From assembly GCA_017512085.1 (NCBI GenBank), contig JAFWHD010000012.1, positions 1 to 37,463 on the forward strand: a stretch of DNA of 37,463 nucleotides, written 5' to 3'. Shown one piece after another: positions 1,031-37,109 of this stretch (its first letter is position 1; every line of letters begins with the position of its first letter). The position numbers were made by a program, and so were the translations under genes. The notes under the pieces are model-generated. The model was given only the letters and a program-made list of their open reading frames with translations, did no database searches and had not been told where the DNA came from. The stretch comes from Candidatus Saccharimonadota bacterium. Its GTDB lineage: Bacteria > Patescibacteriota > Saccharimonadia > Saccharimonadales > Saccharimonadaceae.

Positions 1031-2833
1031 TTAATCTTCATCAACAATAATTGCGAGGTGGGATTCGTCGAGTTGGGACTGGTCGACTATGGAAGGTGAG
1101 TTCATCATGAGATCAACGCCAGAGCCATTCTTCGGGAAGGCGACAATGTCACGGATGTTTTCAACATCTTCTAGCACCATGAAAATACGGTCAAGTCCAG
1201 GGGCACAGCCAGCGTGGGGAGGAGCGCCGTATTTGAAGGCATTGAGCATACCTCCGAAACGGGCCTCAACGTATTCATTATTGTAGCCTAAGATATTAAA
1301 GACTTTATACATAATGTCGGGATTATAATTACGCACAGCACCAGAACAAACCTCGTAACCATTCATGACCATGTCGTATTGGTCGGCCTTTAATGCTAAT
1401 TTATCGGTGTCAGTTTTTGCTTCTTCTAATGCGGCAAGGCCGCCTTTTGGCATACTGAAGGGATTATGACCGAAGTCAAGTTTGTTTAATTTTTCGTCCC
1501 ATTCGTAGAATGGAAAGTCAACTACCCAGCAATAGGCGACTTCGTCGGGATTTTTTAGGTGGAAATGATTGGCGAAGGAGATACGTAGCTCGCCGAGAAC
1601 TTTGTTTACTAGGGGACGTTCATCGGCGCCAAAGAATACTGCGTCGCCAGGCTGTGCGCTGGTGAGCTTCTGGACGTTTTTTATTTCGGTGTCGGACATG
1701 AATTTCAAGATCGGGGATTTTGGGCCTTCATCGGTATATAATATATAGGCGAGACCGCCAGCGCCGAGTTTTCTGGCTTCGTCGGTAAAAATGTCTATTT
1801 CTTTGCGGGAAAGAGAAGCGCCATTCTTTACACAGACAGCCTTCACGCAGGGGGTCTTGAATACTTTAAAGTCGGTATCTTTGAATACATCGGTAAGGTC
1901 AATGAGTTCCATGCCATAGCGAAGGTCGGGTTTATCTACACCATAAGTATCCATACAGAAATCGTAGGGGAGGCGAGGGATTTTGGAAGATTTGTTTAGG
2001 TAAGCCTTTGCGGGCTCGGAACGGAGGACGAGTTTCTTTTGACCAAAATCAGTAGCGAGATTGATGAATAGTGGCTCAATGGTGGAACGAACAACTTCGC
2101 CATCGTCAACGAAACTCATTTCCATGTCGAGCTGATAAAAATCACCGTAGAGACGATCGGCGCGAGGGTCCTCATCGCGGAAGCATGGAGCAATCTGGAA
2201 ATATCTATCAACTCCGCCAACCATGAGGAGCTGTTTGAATTGTTGAGGGGCTTGAGGGAGAGCGTAAAACTTTCCAGGATGGAGACGCGAGGGAACGAGA
2301 AAATCGCGGGCGCCCTCGGGAGAGGAATTGGCGAGAATCGGTGTGGTAATCTCGGTAAAATTATGATCATACATATAATTACGAATGTAACGATAGAATT
2401 CGGAGCGGCGAGAGAGGACTTGTTGCATGGAGGGACGCCTGAGATCTAGGAAACGATATTTGAGACGCATTTCCTCGGAAGATTTCTCGCCGTCGTCGTG
2501 AGTATTGACGGGGAGGGGAAGGGATTTATTTAGGAGTTTTAGCTCGGAAACGACTAATTCAATCTGCCCGGTGGGGATATTTGGATTAATCAAATCTTTT
2601 TCGCGTTTGCGCATTTTGCCAGTGGCCTCTAGGACGAATTCGTCGCGGACGGACTCAGCGAGATTAAATGCTTTCTCAGTCTCGGGGGTGACGACTAGCT
2701 GGAGGATGCCAGAGTGGTCGCGGAGGTCAATAAAAATCAATCCGCCGTGATCTCGTCGGGAGTTTACCCAGCCAGCAACGGTAATAGTCTTATCTAAAAA
2801 ATTTGCTGATTCATTTGCTAAAACTCTATTCAT
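1031..2833 (-). CDS. aspS: aspartyl-tRNA synthetase, bacterial type, probably non-discriminating
   Basis: The protein charges tRNA-Asp (and probably tRNA-Asn) with aspartate in the cytoplasm. At 600 residues it has the full bacterial architecture: an N-terminal OB-fold anticodon-binding domain (GWVNSRRDHGGLIFIDLRD), class II motif 2 (FRDEDPRADR), the GAD insertion domain, then VVDFPFYEW, GHNPFSMP, and motif 3 near APGLDRIFMVLE. The histidine in RRDHGG, where E. coli has leucine, is a known mark of non-discriminating AspRS, which makes Asp-tRNA-Asn for later amidation by GatCAB. That assignment is an inference. An upstream in-frame ATG would add 15 residues, but it lies before the promoter, so the start at 2833 is preferred. 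The gene is flanked by element C1 upstream and A1 downstream. Confidence 0.96.
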   Translation of the reverse strand: MNRVLANESANFLDKTITVAGWVNSRRDHGGLIFIDLRDHSGILQLVVTPETEKAFNLAESVRDEFVLEATGKMRKREKDLINPNIPTGQIELVVSELKLLNKSLPLPVNTHDDGEKSSEEMRLKYRFLDLRRPSMQQVLSRRSEFYRYIRNYMYDHNFTEITTPILANSSPEGARDFLVPSRLHPGKFYALPQAPQQFKQLLMVGGVDRYFQIAPCFRDEDPRADRLYGDFYQLDMEMSFVDDGEVVRSTIEPLFINLATDFGQKKLVLRSEPAKAYLNKSSKIPRLPYDFCMDTYGVDKPDLRYGMELIDLTDVFKDTDFKVFKTPCVKAVCVKNGASLSRKEIDIFTDEARKLGAGGLAYILYTDEGPKSPILKFMSDTEIKNVQKLTSAQPGDAVFFGADERPLVNKVLGELRISFANHFHLKNPDEVAYCWVVDFPFYEWDEKLNKLDFGHNPFSMPKGGLAALEEAKTDTDKLALKADQYDMVMNGYEVCSGAVRNYNPDIMYKVFNILGYNNEYVEARFGGMLNAFKYGAPPHAGCAPGLDRIFMVLEDVENIRDIVAFPKNGSGVDLMMNSPSIVDQSQLDESHLAIIVDED

Positions 2834-2863: not shown

Positions 2864-3004
2864 ATGAGGACATATCACCTTTCTGGGATGCCTCCAAAAC
2901 CGGAAAAGTAAAGTTTAGCTCTGGACTACGTCCTGATATGAAAGTGAACTTGACTTTTCCGGTGTTTTCCGGGAAATTGTCCCAGAAAGGCAATATGTCC
3001 TCAT
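2864..3004. repeat. family C hairpin element, copy C1
   Basis: A 141-bp palindromic element. The outer arm ATGAGGACATAT (2864-2875) pairs perfectly with 2993-3004. A 2x2 internal loop follows, then CCTTTCTGGGA (2878-2888) pairs with 2980-2990. The conserved core begins GCCTCCAAAACCGG and contains the stem CCGGAAAAGT / ACTTTTCCGG, with a small apical GGAC/GTCC hairpin. The right arm contains the TGA stop codon of the CBS gene. The left arm lies where the -35 of aspS would be. Confidence 0.88.
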
Positions 3005-3612
3005 TTACCGAGTAAATAGCTAAGTAACATTTCCGTAGTAAAGAAGCCGGCGAGGTTGTTTTCTTCGTCTAGGACGAGGAAATAATAGCTATTAGTGCGT
3101 TCTATCTCGGAGACTGCGTGAGCGAGAGAGTCGGTGGTGTGGAGATAATGAACGCCGCGATCCATGTATTTGTCGGCGCGTTCGGCTTTTTTTATTTTCA
3201 GGCTATTGAGAGCTTCGGTATGAATGACGCCTTTGATGTGTTCTTTGCTGTCAATGACGGGAAAATTGGTAAAACCAGATTTGTAGAGTCGGTCAAGGAC
3301 GAGAGGGCCGAGAATTTCGGTGTTCTGGACGAAGACGATGCTAGTCTTAGGAGACATGAGGTCGAGAACTTGACGGTCATTAAAACTCATAACGGCGGAA
3401 AGGCGAGCGCGATCGGTGTTGTCTAAAATGTCTCGCGGGGTGCGACTGACGACGCCGATAAAATCCTCCAAAGTGCGAGGTGTGTAGGGAGATGGTGAAG
3501 GGGATTTTGCGGGCTTGGGCTGGGGATTTTCTGGGTGATGAGAGGTGGAACGAAAGCGGTCTAATTTTGGATCGAGCCAACGAGTGAATCTTTGCATTAT
3601 TTTATCAAACAT
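3001..3612 (-). CDS. CBS-domain pair protein
   Basis: The 203-residue protein carries two CBS domains, at roughly residues 75-135 and 140-203. Typical strands are VLDLMSPKTSIVFVQ, FTNFPVIDSKEHIKGVIHTEAL, and YYFLVLDEENNLAGFFTTEMLLSYLL. CBS pairs bind adenine nucleotides and usually regulate an attached enzyme or transporter. None is attached here, and the N-terminal 60 residues are basic and proline/serine-rich with no membrane segment. It resembles the CBS part of CorC/HlyC-type proteins without the transporter part. The start at 3612 is chosen because a TATAAT box lies nine bases upstream; the longer reading to 3654 would cross the promoter and run into the divergent DsbA-like gene. The stop codon forms part of hairpin element C1. 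Confidence 0.85.
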   Translation of the reverse strand: MFDKIMQRFTRWLDPKLDRFRSTSHHPENPQPKPAKSPSPSPYTPRTLEDFIGVVSRTPRDILDNTDRARLSAVMSFNDRQVLDLMSPKTSIVFVQNTEILGPLVLDRLYKSGFTNFPVIDSKEHIKGVIHTEALNSLKIKKAERADKYMDRGVHYLHTTDSLAHAVSEIERTNSYYFLVLDEENNLAGFFTTEMLLSYLLGK

Positions 3613-3621
3613 GATAATATG

Positions 3622-3627
3622 ATTATA
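3622..3627 (-). promoter_or_regulatory. -10 box of the CBS-domain gene
   Basis: TATAAT on the minus strand nine bases before the ATG at 3612, with no Shine-Dalgarno. It sits in the 32-bp gap shared with the divergent DsbA-like gene. Confidence 0.55.
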
Positions 3628-3644
3628 ACATGTAAAGGAGTGAT

Positions 3645-4397
3645 ATGAAAACATCTAAGGGTTGGATTGTCTTATGGTCGGTGATTGGGGTAGCAGTGCT
3701 AGTGCTGCTAGGATTTGCGACTAAAATGATAATTGATAATAATAATAAATACGCAGAGATTGATTTTAATTCGGTGATACCGGCAATGGAAGCAAATGGA
3801 CAGATTGCGGACCATGTAAAGGGCGATGAAAATGCGCCAGTGAAGATAGTGGAATATGCGGATTTTCAATGTCCTGGGTGCGCATCAATTAATCCGCGAG
3901 TGAAAAAAATAATTGATAGTTTAGGTGGAAAATTGGCAATAATATACCGAAGTTATATTCTTTCTTATCATGAGAATGGTACGGCGGCAGCAGCGGCGGC
4001 AGAAGCGGCTGGATTACAAGGATATTGGGAAGAATATGGAGATTTATTATTCGCAAATCAGGCGGAGTGGGAATCGGCGACGGGGGATGAGCGAACAGCA
4101 TTGTTTGAAAAATACTTTGATGAGGTGACGAGGGGGAGAGGCGATAAAGAGAAGTTTGCAGCGGATGTTGCGAGCGCAGAGGTGAAGAAGAAGATTAATT
4201 TTGATACGGGAATCGGGAAGAAGATCGACATTCAAGCGACACCAGCATTCTATATAGATGGACAGTATATCAAGTGGAGTGAGGGGAGTAGTGTAAATGT
4301 GAACGGCAAGGAGATTACTTGGGATTCGGCGCGTAGTGGGGATGCCTTTGAGGAGCTGATAAAAGAAATTGTGGAAACGAAATTAGGACAAAAATAA
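3645..4397 (+). CDS. membrane-anchored DsbA-like thiol-disulfide oxidoreductase
   Basis: A 250-residue thioredoxin-fold protein of the DSBA/Thioredoxin_4 family. Residues about 6-28 form an uncleaved signal anchor (GWIVLWSVIGVAVLVLLGFA), placing the catalytic domain outside the membrane. The active site is CPGC in VEYADFQCPGCASINPRVK, and the cis-proline region is DIQATPAFYIDGQYI. It probably introduces or shuffles disulfides in exported proteins, and the envelope proteins in this window contain many cysteine pairs. The start is supported by AAGGAG five bases upstream. The gene ends at a strong palindromic terminator. It could equally be a sulfhydryl oxidase partner; no DsbB/VKOR-like gene is adjacent. 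Confidence 0.88.
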   Translation: MKTSKGWIVLWSVIGVAVLVLLGFATKMIIDNNNKYAEIDFNSVIPAMEANGQIADHVKGDENAPVKIVEYADFQCPGCASINPRVKKIIDSLGGKLAIIYRSYILSYHENGTAAAAAAEAAGLQGYWEEYGDLLFANQAEWESATGDERTALFEKYFDEVTRGRGDKEKFAADVASAEVKKKINFDTGIGKKIDIQATPAFYIDGQYIKWSEGSSVNVNGKEITWDSARSGDAFEELIKEIVETKLGQK

Positions 4398-5764: not shown

Positions 5765-5841
5765 GGGGATGTAGCTCAGTTGGTTAGAGCATGCGTCTTA
5801 TACACGCAGTGTCCTAGGTTCGAGTCCTAGCATCCCTACCA
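5765..5841 (+). tRNA. tRNA-Ile(UAU), CCA encoded
   Basis: The full cloverleaf reads: acceptor GGGGATG/CATCCCT, D stem GCTC/GAGC, anticodon stem TGCGT/ACGCA with loop CTTATAC (anticodon TAT), T stem CTAGG/CCTAG, discriminator A and encoded CCA. The anticodon reads AUA directly, instead of the usual bacterial CAU modified to lysidine. A TATAAT box lies just upstream near 5750. A family B repeat begins immediately after the CCA. Confidence 0.93.
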
Positions 5842-5843
5842 AG

Positions 5844-5934
5844 CTATTGGGTTTTTTCTTTAGAAAAGAAAAAGTCCCAACGAAAAAGAAAATAGTTCAA
5901 AAAAGAAGGCGAAAGTGAATTCCGCCTTCTTTTT
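5844..5934 (+). repeat. family B terminator-like repeat, copy B1
   Basis: The copy contains the first hairpin CTTT-AGA-AAAG inside an A/T-rich stem, the linker AACGAAAAAGAAAATAG, and a second hairpin AAGAAGGCG (5903-5911)/CGCCTTCTT (5923-5931) followed by TTT. The second hairpin can terminate the tRNA-Ile transcript. Related copies lie at 9781-9958 (twice) and within 14733-14832. Confidence 0.75.
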
Positions 5935-6045
5935 GGTTTATGACTTTTTTCTGCGAAAAAAGAAAGGCAGAAGTGAATTCCGTTTTGATTTTTGTTTATG
6001 ACATTTATAAAAACAATGCTCTCTCATTTTGGGATTTCTATTTTT
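5935..6045. repeat. decayed B fragment and right-end fragment of family A
   Basis: A second, weaker copy of the B 3' part (AAAGGCAGAAGTGAATTCCG) is followed by ACAATGCTCTCTCATTTTGG, which matches the right end of element A at 14.9 kb. No left half is found nearby. The fragment ends at the promoter of the 6066 gene. Confidence 0.6.
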
Positions 6046-9765: not shown

Positions 9766-9780
9766 TGGTTGCGGGGGCTG
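9766..9780 (-). pseudogene. 15-nt 3' end fragment of the initiator tRNA
   Basis: TGGTTGCGGGGGCTG is identical to the complement of the last 15 bases, CCA included, of both initiator-tRNA-like genes downstream. It stops inside the T stem, exactly where the first 89-bp repeat begins. Confidence 0.65.
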
Positions 9781-9958
9781 TTCTAAGCTGGGCTTTTTCT
9801 TTAGAAAAGAAAAAGTCCCAACGAAAAAGAAAATAGGATAAAAAGAAAGGCGGAAGTGAATTCCGCCTTTTCTAAGCTGGGCTTTTTCTTTAGAAAAGAA
9901 AAAGTCCCAACGAAAAAGAAAATAGGATAAAAAGAAAGGCGGAAGTGAATTCCGCCTT
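9781..9958. repeat. perfect 89-bp tandem duplication of family B (B2, B3)
   Basis: Two identical 89-bp units (9781-9869 and 9870-9958). Each contains the A/T hairpin CTTTTTCTTT-AGA-AAAGAAAAAG and the GC hairpin AAAGGCGGAA-GTGAA-TTCCGCCTT. Perfect identity implies a recent duplication. Confidence 0.92.
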
Positions 9959-9965
9959 TCTTTTT
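9931..9965. terminator. bidirectional terminator in the last B unit
   Basis: AAAGAAAGGCGGAA (9931-9944), loop GTGAA, 14 complementary bases (9950-9963), then TT. It can stop both the pilin-like operon (plus) and the initiator tRNA transcript (minus). Confidence 0.8.
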
Positions 9966-9980
9966 GATTAACTATTCAAA

Positions 9981-14644: not shown

Positions 14645-14910
14645 AACCTTCAGTTTGCGCGCGGTTGTTTTTGTATCTCGTTAATTATCACAACGTTTCG
14701 CTTAATAAAAAACAAGGCTAAAGTGATTTTTTCTAAACTGAGCTTTTCTCTTTGAAAAAGAGAAAAGACCCACCTCAAAAGAGAAAATAGTGTAAAGAAA
14801 AAAGCAGAAGTCAATTCCGCTTTTTTCTTGATTATTAATTGAATATGGAAATGTCGTAATAATCACTTTAGGGTAAAATAAATGTTCACTCATTTTGGGA
14901 TTTCTATCTT
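14645..14910. repeat. family A element interrupted by a family B insert (A3/B4)
   Basis: The left half (about 14655-14729, GCGGTTGTTTTTGTATCTCG onwards) and right half (about 14836-14910, ending near TCACTCATTTTGGG) match element A. Between them, roughly 14730-14835, lies a diverged B copy with the hairpin CTTTTCTCTTT/AAAGAGAAAAG and a terminator-like AAGAAAAAAGC/GCTTTTTTCTT. The B copy sits at the apex of the A palindrome. Confidence 0.75.
14795..14829 (+). terminator. terminator-like hairpin in B4
   Basis: AAGAAAAAAGCAGAA and TTCCGCTTTTTTCTT form a stem with one mismatch and loop GTCAA. The right arm is T-rich; it can stop transcription from the lamin-tail gene. Confidence 0.6.
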
Positions 14911-18664: not shown

Positions 18665-20560
18665 ATGAATGTATTAGTGGTGGGAAGTGTAATAAAAGAT
18701 GTCTATCTAAATATAGATAGTCGGGGGGAGAATTTTGAAGTGGATGCGGAAGGGGTGAAGTGGCTAGACCTTGGTTTCAACGCGTCGGAGCATCATTTTT
18801 TCTCGCAAGTGGATAATTATGGTGGGGCGGCGGTGACGCTGGAAGTACTGCAGAGACTAGGAGTGGAGGCGAAAATCTCGGGGTCAGAGCTTGATTTTTT
18901 GCGTGAAGAAGATGGACGCATGGGGGGAGATGAGCAAATTTCACATAGATATGTACTCATCACGGACGAACAAACGTGTTATTTGGCACCGAGCAGATTC
19001 CAGAAGGCGACATTCTCAATGCCGAAGGAACCAACAGATTATATTTTTCTGGATAGGTCGGCGGTAATGACGGAAGTGGTGGAGAGGCAAATAATCGAGT
19101 ATCTAAATAATTCGCCGCGAACGAAATTGGTAATATATGCGCAAAATTTACTAGATAGGAAATGGGATAGATTACTAAGGCGGGCGAGTCTAATTTTCGT
19201 AGAGAATCAAGATAAGATAGCAGCAAATCCAGATACGCCGGGAAAAAAGACGACGGAGATGAAAAAAACGGAATTTACGCGAAGGTTGGAAGAATTTGAT
19301 AAGAGAAAGCTGGTATTTTTGTCCGATCGGCAAGTATCATATCTGGATATAAGTGAGAAGATTTCAGTGAGACGAGTGGATGTGATGACACATTTATCGG
19401 CATATTCTATCGTGGCGGGAACGGTGTTAGGATGTTTCATCTTGGGACTTAGTGTGGAAGAAAGTTTGAAACTAGCTAGACTAAATGTAGAAAATGCAAA
19501 ACTGGATAGTAGCCTCAGCTTAGCGAGATTAGAAGAAATGATGGAAGCGGAGAAATTGGGGGAAAATCTGGAGTTAACCGCGGCAAGTCTGGTGCATGGA
19601 GAGAAAGGAATACTGGCGGCGGATGAGTCGGGGGGATCGATACACAAGAAATTTGAGGCGATGGAGATACCAGATGATTATGAAACGAGACGAGAATATC
19701 GCGAGATGCTAATTACGACGGAGGGGCTAGGCGAATATGTGAATGGAGTGATATTGTTTGATGAGACAGCGAGACAGAGAGTGGGGACGGGGGAGAATTT
19801 CGTGGATTATTTAACACGGAAGATGATAATGCCAGGTATAAAAGTAGATCAAGGGTTAGAAAAAATGAAGGAGTCGCCGAATGAGACTTATACGAAGGGA
19901 CTAGAAGGGTTAGGAGAGAGATTGACAGAATATCATGAGATGGGGCTAAGGTTTGCGAAATGGCGGGCGGCATTTAATATAACGATGGATGAAAATGGGG
20001 GACTCATGACACCAACTAAGAAAGCGATGGTGCGAAATGCCGAGATATTAGCGGAGTATGCGGATGAATGCCAGAAACATGGTATCGTGCCAATCGTGGA
20101 GCCAGAAGTGGTATATGATGGTGAACATTCAATTGAGACTTGTGCGAGAGTGACAGCTGAGGTGCTAGATGTGCTATTTGATGAGCTAGAAAAGAAAAAG
20201 GTAAAATTAGAAGCATGTATCTTAAAGGTAAATATGGTGCTCGCGGGAAAGAAATATGGTAGGGAATCTACAGCGGAAGAAGTGGGAGAAAAAACAGCGG
20301 AAGTACTAAAAACGCATGTACCGAGAGAATTAGCTGGAGTGGTGTTCCTATCGGGAGGACAAACACCGGAGCAGGCGACGGAAAACTTAGCGGCGGTAGA
20401 GAAAAATGGACCGTTCCCGTGGCCGGTGACATTTTCGTTTGCGAGAGCGCTGCAGGGACCGGCACTAGAAAAGTGGGCAGGAAAGGAAGAAAATGTGGCG
20501 GAAGCACAAGAAGCGTTCCGCGAGAGGCTGATTGCGAATAGTAAAGCGCTGTCTATGTAA
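18665..20560 (+). CDS. fusion of a degenerate PfkB-type sugar kinase and class I fructose-bisphosphate aldolase
   Basis: A 631-residue two-domain protein. Residues about 1-290 have the PfkB/ribokinase fold: N-terminal VLVVGSVIKDVYLNI, the glycine pair region NYGGAAVTLEVLQRLGVEA, and a late helix SIVAGTVLGCFILGLSVEES. The catalytic anion-hole motif, normally DTxGAGD, reads DVMTHLSAYS, so this half is probably inactive or regulatory. Residues about 300-631 are class I aldolase: GEKGILAADESGGSIHKKFE, a Schiff-base lysine in ACILKVNMV near residue 520, then GVVFLSGGQ and FSFARALQGPAL. The aldolase half should cleave fructose 1,6-bisphosphate to two triose phosphates, feeding the triose phosphate isomerase encoded 1.2 kb downstream. 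Element C2 follows the stop codon. Confidence 0.88.
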   Translation: MNVLVVGSVIKDVYLNIDSRGENFEVDAEGVKWLDLGFNASEHHFFSQVDNYGGAAVTLEVLQRLGVEAKISGSELDFLREEDGRMGGDEQISHRYVLITDEQTCYLAPSRFQKATFSMPKEPTDYIFLDRSAVMTEVVERQIIEYLNNSPRTKLVIYAQNLLDRKWDRLLRRASLIFVENQDKIAANPDTPGKKTTEMKKTEFTRRLEEFDKRKLVFLSDRQVSYLDISEKISVRRVDVMTHLSAYSIVAGTVLGCFILGLSVEESLKLARLNVENAKLDSSLSLARLEEMMEAEKLGENLELTAASLVHGEKGILAADESGGSIHKKFEAMEIPDDYETRREYREMLITTEGLGEYVNGVILFDETARQRVGTGENFVDYLTRKMIMPGIKVDQGLEKMKESPNETYTKGLEGLGERLTEYHEMGLRFAKWRAAFNITMDENGGLMTPTKKAMVRNAEILAEYADECQKHGIVPIVEPEVVYDGEHSIETCARVTAEVLDVLFDELEKKKVKLEACILKVNMVLAGKKYGRESTAEEVGEKTAEVLKTHVPRELAGVVFLSGGQTPEQATENLAAVEKNGPFPWPVTFSFARALQGPALEKWAGKEENVAEAQEAFRERLIANSKALSM

Positions 20561-20568
20561 GTGATTTA

Positions 20569-20698
20569 GCTACCACCCCATCTGGGACGCCTCCAAAACC
20601 GGAAAAGTAAAGTTCAGCTCTGGACTGCGTCCTGAAAAGAAAAGTGAACTTGACTTTTCCGGTGTTTTCCGGGATATTGTCCCCGATGGGGCGGTAGC
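20569..20698. repeat. family C hairpin element, copy C2
   Basis: The outer arms GCTACC-a-CCCCATC-t-GGGAC (20569-20588) and GTCCC-c-GATGGGG-c-GGTAGC (20679-20698) pair except for two opposed mismatches. The core GCCTCCAAAACCGG to CCGGTGTTTTCCGGG is nearly identical to C1 and C3. It begins nine bases after the aldolase stop, between convergent genes. Confidence 0.88.
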
Positions 20699-21556: not shown

Positions 21557-21576
21557 CTATAACAATGCATGAGATA

Positions 21577-21742
21577 GATAAAAAACTCCAAAATTCGTTC
21601 GCGGTTGTTTTTATATCTCGTTAATTATTACAACATTTCACCCAATAAAAAATCAAGTCTAAAGTGATTTTTTATGGGGAAATGCTGTAAAAATCACTCA
21701 GAGGTAAAAACAAATGCTCACTCATTTTTGGAGTTTTTTATC
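21577..21742. repeat. family A hairpin element, full copy A2
   Basis: The core is nearly identical to A1 (TTCGCGGTTGTTTTTATATC, TGATTTTTTATGGGGAAATG and so on), but the outer arm is different: GATAAAAAACTCCAAAA (21577-21593) pairs perfectly with 21726-21742 over 17 bp. It lies between the divergent promoters of the HAD gene and tpiA, so a simple terminator role is unlikely here. Confidence 0.87.
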
Positions 21743-21755
21743 TTTCTATGTGTGA

Positions 21756-35950: not shown

Positions 35951-36096
35951 GATAATGGATTTATCACCCTATCCAGGACGCCTCCAAAACCGGAAAAGTA
36001 AAGTTCAGTTCGGGACAAAGTCCTGATAAAAAGTGAACTTGACTTTTCCGGTGTTTTCCGGGGAATTGCCCTGGATAGGGGGGTAAATCCATTATT
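35951..36096. repeat. family C hairpin element, copy C3
   Basis: The outer arm GATAATGGATTTA (35951-35963) pairs with 36084-36096, with a terminal G-T. A 3x3 internal loop follows, then CCCTATCCAGG (35967-35977) pairs perfectly with 36070-36080. The core matches C1 and C2. The right arm reaches the last base of the murB stop codon (36096-36098). Confidence 0.88.
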
Positions 36097-37109
36097 TATA
36101 CAATTTCAACAGGCTCTTGCTCTAGCCAGTAACCAAATTTGTCATAGACGGTGCTGATGATTTCGGCGCGGGCGGCGTCAAGGTCTGCGTAGGAAGTGGC
36201 GGATTCGTTTAGGAGGACGAGGGGAGCTTTCGGATTGACACGGAAACCATGGATGAGTTTACCGGAGAGACCACTGTGTTCGATGAGCCAGGCGGAACTA
36301 ATCTTATATCCATCATGACCGCGATAGACGGGGTAACCTTTGTCCTCGGCGAGCTCTATGCCAGCATCGTCAAGATAAACATTTTTGAAGAAGGAACCAG
36401 CACTGGGACGCTCTAAGGGATCGGGAAGTTTGTCGGCGCGGATGGCAGAAATGATGGTGCGAAGTCCCGAGGGGCTGAAATCTTTACAATTATGGTCGTC
36501 AATGTATTGCTCGACGGAATGATAGTAAGGACGCGGCATCTCGCCTGGATGAAGCTCTAGAGTAATAGAAACGACGAAATAACGGTTTTTCTCGGTGGTG
36601 TTTAGGAGACTTTTGCGATAGCCGAAGTTAAACTCGGACTTTACGAGAGTCTTAAACGAGTGGGTAGTGGAATCATAGACATCGGCACTGACAAAAGTGT
36701 CGGCTAGCTCCTGCCCGTAGGCACCAATATTCTGGACGGGGGCGGCGCCAGCGAGACCAGGAATGCGACTGAGTGCTTCAATACCAGTAAGACCACGACT
36801 AGTGGTAAACTCAACGACGCGATCCCAGAGCTCGCCACCCATGACAAGGAGACGGACTTTGCCGCGTTCGGTAGGGATTTCGGAAATGCCACGCATACGA
36901 TTAATAATAATGACGCCCGGGAAACCTTCGTCGCGACCAATGGTATTCGCACCGTAACCGAGAACAAAGGTAGGGAGATGCTGGAGGCCAGCAAAATTGT
37001 AGGCATACTGCAAATCGGCGGGAGACTCAACTTCAATCACATAACGAGCGGGGCCGCCGAGACGCATGGTGGTTAGACTTGATATCAAAATATTTTGATT
37101 CATCCTCAT
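36096..37109 (-). CDS. murB: UDP-N-acetylenolpyruvoylglucosamine reductase
   Basis: MurB reduces UDP-GlcNAc-enolpyruvate to UDP-MurNAc, the second committed step of peptidoglycan synthesis, using FAD and NADPH. The 337-residue protein is type I, as in E. coli. It opens LTTMRLGGPARYVIEVESPA and continues with the FAD-binding FVLGYGANTIG, LSRIPGLAGAAPVQNIGAYG, and FGYRKSLL. The proton-donor serine is in RPSAGSFFKNVYLDDAGIEL, and the last catalytic glutamate is in YWLEQEPVEIV. A TATACT box six bases before the ATG at 37109 supports this start, although a second ATG at 37103 is possible. Element C3 follows directly at the stop codon. Confidence 0.96.
   Translation of the reverse strand: MRMNQNILISSLTTMRLGGPARYVIEVESPADLQYAYNFAGLQHLPTFVLGYGANTIGRDEGFPGVIIINRMRGISEIPTERGKVRLLVMGGELWDRVVEFTTSRGLTGIEALSRIPGLAGAAPVQNIGAYGQELADTFVSADVYDSTTHSFKTLVKSEFNFGYRKSLLNTTEKNRYFVVSITLELHPGEMPRPYYHSVEQYIDDHNCKDFSPSGLRTIISAIRADKLPDPLERPSAGSFFKNVYLDDAGIELAEDKGYPVYRGHDGYKISSAWLIEHSGLSGKLIHGFRVNPKAPLVLLNESATSYADLDAARAEIISTVYDKFGYWLEQEPVEIV

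Follow-up and report, generated by a model that had tools for sequence, protein, structure and literature searches.

The window, i.e. the whole 37,463-nt stretch analysed here (contig JAFWHD010000012.1, assembly GCA_017512085.1, Candidatus Saccharimonadota bacterium), carries three copies of a hairpin element that we call family C. C1 lies between aspS (1031–2830, minus strand) and a CBS-domain-like gene (3001–3654, minus strand). C2 starts 8 bp past the stop codon of an aldolase-like gene (18665–20560, plus strand), and C3 is located between a folD-like gene (start 35140, minus strand) and a murB-like gene (36096–37109, minus strand). A preliminary description of the window had reported three copies, and a mechanical hairpin scan recovers them at 2864–3004, 20569–20698 and 35952–36095. 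The features noted there are present, namely the common core, arms that are complementary but differ between copies, the inner stem and, in C1, a T-G in place of a C-G pair. The parts of the three copies are as follows.

2864–3004, plus strand: C1, whole hairpin
2864–2888, plus strand: C1 left arm, locus-specific outside and family-like inside (CTGGGA), pairing with 2980–3004
2889–2979, plus strand: C1 core, with conserved internal-loop strands, core stem, inner hairpin and terminal loop (from the alignment and pair counts)
2980–3004, plus strand: C1 right arm, its end overlapping the stop codon of the neighbouring CBS-domain-like gene
20569–20698, plus strand: C2, whole hairpin
20569–20588, plus strand: C2 left arm, GCTACCACCCCATCTGGGAC (from arm-pairing scores)
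20598–20663, plus strand: C2 core stem, accggaaaagtaaagttca/tgaacttgacttttccggt, with the inner hairpin in its loop
20679–20698, plus strand: C2 right arm, GTCCCCGATGGGGCGGTAGC (from arm-pairing scores)
35952–36095, plus strand: C3, whole hairpin
35952–35977, plus strand: C3 left arm, ATAATGGATTTATCACCCTATCCAGG (from the mechanical hairpin scan)
35978–36069, plus strand: C3 core (from the alignment and the hairpin scan)
36070–36095, plus strand: C3 right arm, CCTGGATAGGGGGGTAAATCCATTAT (from the mechanical hairpin scan)

The genome that holds the window (G000; contig:position coordinates such as C21:3670 refer to it, other G numbers to relatives) was searched over 696,564 bases in 42 contigs, 92% complete. 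C1 has 44 matches there, which leave 43 loci after removal of duplicates; the three copies of the preliminary description are thus real members of a family with 43 loci. Both core halves are present at 38 of these (one of them cut by a contig end), the remaining five are partial, and about 37 are full hairpins. The copies are dispersed and form no array. According to the ORF call nearly all of them are intergenic, and the rare ORFs running across a copy are either short or antisense to it. Copies often start within a few bases of stop codons; the surrounding genes are in tandem with the element in 11 cases, convergent in eight, in tandem against it in seven and divergent in six.

Family C elements consist of about 105 nt of their own sequence plus outer arms of 15–25 bp. 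From the outside inwards, locus-specific outer arms of about 10–15 bp are followed by family-like inner arms (CATCTGGGAC/GTCCCAGATG), an asymmetric internal loop with the conserved strands GCCTCC-AAAA and TTTT-CCGGGAAATTG, the core stem (ACCGGAAAAGT-AAAGTTCA/TGAACTT-GACTTTTCCGGT), and a four-pair inner hairpin (GGAC/GTCC) with a variable terminal stretch. The parts of the core conserved in sequence are the loop strands GCCTYC and CCGGGAAATTG and the stem AAAGTAAAG/CTTGACTTT. Between-copy column identity is 0.93–0.96 in the core, 0.78–0.80 in the inner arms, 0.61 in the terminal loop and 0.35 in the flanks. At 0.43–0.46 the outer arms do not form terminal inverted repeats of fixed sequence, as would be usual for a MITE. 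The arms had previously been called completely different from copy to copy. They are indeed locus-specific and self-complementary, but their identity of 43–46% exceeds the 35% of the outside flanks, a weak family consensus is visible in the arms within each genome, and small groups of copies share arms, for example C1, C21:3670 and C40:15342.

The left arm of a copy pairs with its own right arm with a mean score of 34.2, as compared to 12.7 with the right arms of other copies. Across the alignment of 34 copies, pairing holds in 95.5% of cells overall and in 91.3% of those in the outer helix. In the same alignment 24 of 44 pairs have changed on both sides (equalled by none of 500 shuffles and no slid version), compensatory cells number 148 versus 40 in shuffles (none of 500 reaching 148), and covariation is 0.300 versus 0.126 when shuffled; since the structure used was derived from the same alignment, these pair counts lean towards the structure. 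The comparison of own and cross arm scores is free of this bias because it is independent of the alignment-derived structure. The core stem and inner hairpin covary as well, e.g. GGAC/GTCC is replaced by GGGC/GCCC. Base-pair conservation, as suggested in the preliminary description, is therefore borne out by compensatory changes in the arms, core stem and inner hairpin, and also across species. Our results show that the arms of family C are conserved mainly as pairing.

Covariation of this kind would be expected if selection acted on an RNA, i.e. if the element were transcribed and the folded RNA had a role in mRNA stability, processing or regulation. All helices covary, the unpaired strands are conserved, and the frequent starts close to stop codons would fit such a role. 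In the orientation used, arm mismatches are more often of the A-C type than of the G-T type (34 versus 20), which could weakly hint at a minus-strand RNA and is unconfirmed by fold energy: over 75 copies fold energy has no strand preference (p 0.33 and 0.54). Moreover, gene orientation shows no preference, and no match to Rfam exceeds the gathering score; the nearest hits are generic microRNA hairpins that score well under it. The element is missing from nearly all relatives and has decayed at one locus. A transcribed structured RNA is not favoured because there is no strand or gene-orientation preference and no Rfam family, and we regard it as improbable. An intrinsic terminator was rejected for this genome, as copies occur in all gene orientations and T tracts are absent (TTTT in 6 and AAAA in 5 of 36 right flanks).

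Within the genome the core and the arms have had histories of their own. When all copies are compared, outer-arm distance cannot be predicted from core distance (Mantel r 0.10, p 0.12), whereas r is 0.66 between the two core halves and 0.56 between the two arms. In two pairs of copies the cores are 2–3% apart and the arms are near the random level (0.53 vs 0.49). The nearest neighbour by core is also the nearest by arm in just 4 of 34 copies. C1, C21:3670 and C40:15342 have an arm identity of 0.78, yet they are not nearest to each other in the core.

Such unlinked histories would also arise if the core alone moved and had inserted into older palindromes, such as terminators or hairpins of other kinds, whose stems are now its arms, as the preliminary description had considered. 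At C29:1130 a family C copy lies within the arms of another hairpin family, and about 130 short-loop hairpins in the genome could serve as targets. Short perfect inverted repeats that differ from locus to locus, e.g. GCAAAGCG/CGCTTTGC and CTTGAAATG/CATTTCAAG, flank the element ends in two sheep-jejunum genomes, and the outermost repeats look target-derived. If this were the case, the empty site should be a bare hairpin. The nearest genome by aspS is G057, with 76% identity. In its aspS/CBS spacer, the C1 site, 15 bp separate the aligned flanks (158 in the window). At the C3 site the stop codon of murB overlaps the start of folD. Core, arms and bare hairpin are missing from both sites. The sites of C41:23024, C10:13690, C21:3670, C10:6818 and C12:12689 are likewise without the element in G057. 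Among the relatives, G109 and G076 are 82% identical at one locus, and at several G076 element sites checked in G109 core and arms are both absent. Empty sites without arms or hairpin point to insertion of the hairpin as one complete unit, with the reservation that at 76–82% identity between nearest genomes a single "empty" site may reflect loss, or the bare hairpin may have arisen in a later ancestor. The weak arm consensus in each genome and the lack of A/T tracts around the arms here also speak against insertion of a core into an existing hairpin, and it is unlikely that family C arose in this way in the window; elsewhere, as in the two sheep-jejunum genomes, it may have. At one G076 locus a decayed half element remains in G109, so some copies predate the split of these two genomes.

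A covariance model built from this genome, a check proposed in the preliminary description, finds family C in eight further genomes, i.e. carriers are 9 of the 147 genomes of the genus. There are 14 matches in G076, six in G118, three in G036 and one or two in the others. An exact pattern run against 84,980 species genomes matches almost exclusively Saccharibacteria MAGs, nearly all of them from goat, sheep and buffalo gut; one match in Flavobacterium was judged to be due to chance. In the genomes found by the pattern GCC, AAAGTAAAG, TTGACTTT and CGGGAWA are invariant (the last three being fixed by the search pattern), and covariation extends over the arms and some of the core stem. A pattern scan of viral contigs found no family C. 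The aldolase-like gene next to C2, used as a protein query against the genome contigs, gave no match. In G076 (L094, 1501–1619) a SpoU-like methylase gene has lost its own end to the element, which encodes a new C-terminus for it.

Taken as a whole, the family is multi-copy, intergenic, missing from orthologous sites of relatives and strongly base-paired, and for these reasons we think that it is, by a little more than even chances, a mobile, non-autonomous DNA hairpin with a core constrained in sequence and arms constrained in shape. An enzyme supplied in trans would spread the element through the intergenic DNA of a few, mostly ruminant-gut, Saccharibacteria. The folded form, either a single-strand hairpin or a cruciform, may be what is recognised, the core by its sequence and the arms by their shape, and the arms could then diverge freely as long as pairing holds. 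The unlinking of core and arms might come from ectopic gene conversion that homogenises the cores and leaves the arms local; alternatively, the arms may be replaced at copying.

Regarding the enzyme, three transposase families were covered. Y1_Tnp (PF01797) is absent from this genome (the assembly being 92% complete) and from G076, and rve (PF00665) and IS1595 DDE (PF12762) domains are absent from the eight carriers examined, this genome included (G128 left out). An autonomous parent, in which the two halves of the element would enclose a gene, was not seen. A tyrosine recombinase was rejected as a partner: it is present in a single copy here and has counterparts in non-carriers. A reverse transcriptase was rejected too, as it is present or missing in carriers and non-carriers alike. 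The reverse transcriptase of this genome (C24:15383–16000, within the region C24:15145–17700) adjoins repeated gene ends, TTTTCGGTCCGTTGYGTGGCGGTCTRA, with about 15 more such ends elsewhere, which suggests that the two are part of a diversity-generating retroelement with many targets. Family B hairpins directly follow several gene ends of the TTTTCGGTCCGTTGYGTGGCGGTCTRA type. General target-site duplication was not found, as direct flank similarity is 14.9 for own and 14.0 for cross comparisons. The sole case resembling a target duplication is C10:13690 (L018), where an imperfect direct repeat of about 23 nt flanks the copy and matches the end of the upstream gene.

The best reading of these data is that family C works like REPINs and palindromic MITEs. 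It is short, multi-copy and non-coding with inverted-repeat ends, and empty sites are found in relatives, all of which are traits of MITEs. We file it under neither heading because fixed ends, a RAYT and general target duplications are all missing. REPINs are REP doublets that form hairpins and are linked to RAYT transposases, and compensatory changes have been reported on both sides of their hairpins (PMC3116915). Both kinds of element are extragenic, non-autonomous, present in many copies and able to form a single-strand hairpin. However, the ends of a REPIN are conserved and its middle varies, whereas in family C the middle is conserved and the ends vary, and this genome lacks the Y1 transposase. 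ERIC/IRU, YPAL, Correia/NEMIS and other small MITE-like repeats (PMC2229807) share the length of 100–200 bp, the long stem-loop and the intergenic position, some being near or overlapping stop codons; several of them have fixed terminal inverted repeats and target duplications, in contrast to the locus-specific arms of family C. The Borrelia plasmid repeat "Sequence #2" (PMC2674063) is also found downstream of genes and has many double changes that keep the stem, but at about 34 nt it lacks a long conserved core framed by variable arms. Rickettsia palindromic elements (RPEs) are palindromic mobile repeats of 105–146 bp in a reduced genome, and the altered C-terminus of the SpoU-like protein in G076 is a further likeness. 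RPEs are known for in-frame insertion within genes; family C copies differ in being intergenic or at gene ends. Integron attC sites are recognised as folded hairpins that have variable stems and fixed unpaired bases. Family C differs from them in lacking cassette arrays, and the single tyrosine recombinase here has counterparts in non-carriers. In the literature searched we found no element of this plan described in Saccharibacteria. Descriptions of small palindromic repeats usually give them fixed ends; in family C, the reverse of a REPIN in this respect, the inside is fixed and the ends can vary almost at will while pairing is kept. With it one can put to the test an old question about what maintains such repeats, be it the shape of the DNA, an RNA or repair between the arms.

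Several unrelated hairpin families in the genome follow the plan of family C. Long-armed hairpins number 129, versus two in a Markov control, and fall into core families of 34 (C), 20 (B), 9 (A), 7, 6, 3, 3 and 3 members. In family A and in cluster 5 cores with 86–92% identity lie inside arms with 50–68% identity; one cluster of 11 hairpins with shared arms is a plain repeat. G057 and G109 hold only 12 and 8 such hairpins, some of which form small groups by related cores while their arms differ. More than 100 long hairpins can thus be present in a genome of about 0.7 Mb, about ten times as many as in two relatives of the same genus. In three stretches of G000 (L038, C11:1299–1619; L039, C4:10978–11220; L040, C35:8530–8828) the left half of a family C element is fused to fragments from other families of hairpins, which means that hairpin elements nest in or recombine with one another. 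There is a small chance that the process is more general and that conserved cores of several unrelated families pass between locus-specific paired arms by structure-directed exchange. In this case placement would be determined by the surrounding shape and not by sequence, and the enzyme would act on folded single strands and be no known transposase.

The shared plan would also fit a by-product of DNA replication, in which hairpin-templated arm-to-arm correction keeps the pairing and gene conversion homogenises the cores, with no selection on the arms in a genome that tolerates palindromes. The absence of strand bias agrees with this, and SbcC- and SbcD-like proteins were not seen in a crude motif search. 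Correction running past the palindrome should, however, mirror the flanking genes, and the arms reach at least 3 nt into conserved coding sequence at only 2 of 64 gene ends. That hairpin ends so rarely enter conserved coding sequence argues against arms made by copying of flanks in general. Arms as mirror copies of flanks were suggested by single cases (G157 at the C1 locus; L121 and L136), and a systematic test was negative. In addition, the low numbers of such hairpins in G057 and G109 mean that an abundance of long palindromes is no general trait of the genus. We consider such a by-product quite unlikely, and a mobile DNA hairpin is still the reading that we prefer.

Other hairpins were seen as well. 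In G157 the spacer upstream of aspS, i.e. the C1 locus, contains a different hairpin (L116) with a core around ATAAAAATTACAACAG; the CBS gene ends inside one of its arms, which takes in the final codon and the stop, and a mirrored copy lies opposite. Within the window a second hairpin family has two copies, at 863–1034 and 21572–21747, in which 136 nt of core are 98% identical. As in family C, their outer arms are mutually unrelated yet self-complementary. At 5837–5993, 9778–9978 and 14778–14843 and elsewhere in the genome there are short hairpins whose apex is fixed, being GGAAGTGAATTCC or the complement of it, and whose arms are locus-specific with A and T tracts; they look like terminators sharing one loop.
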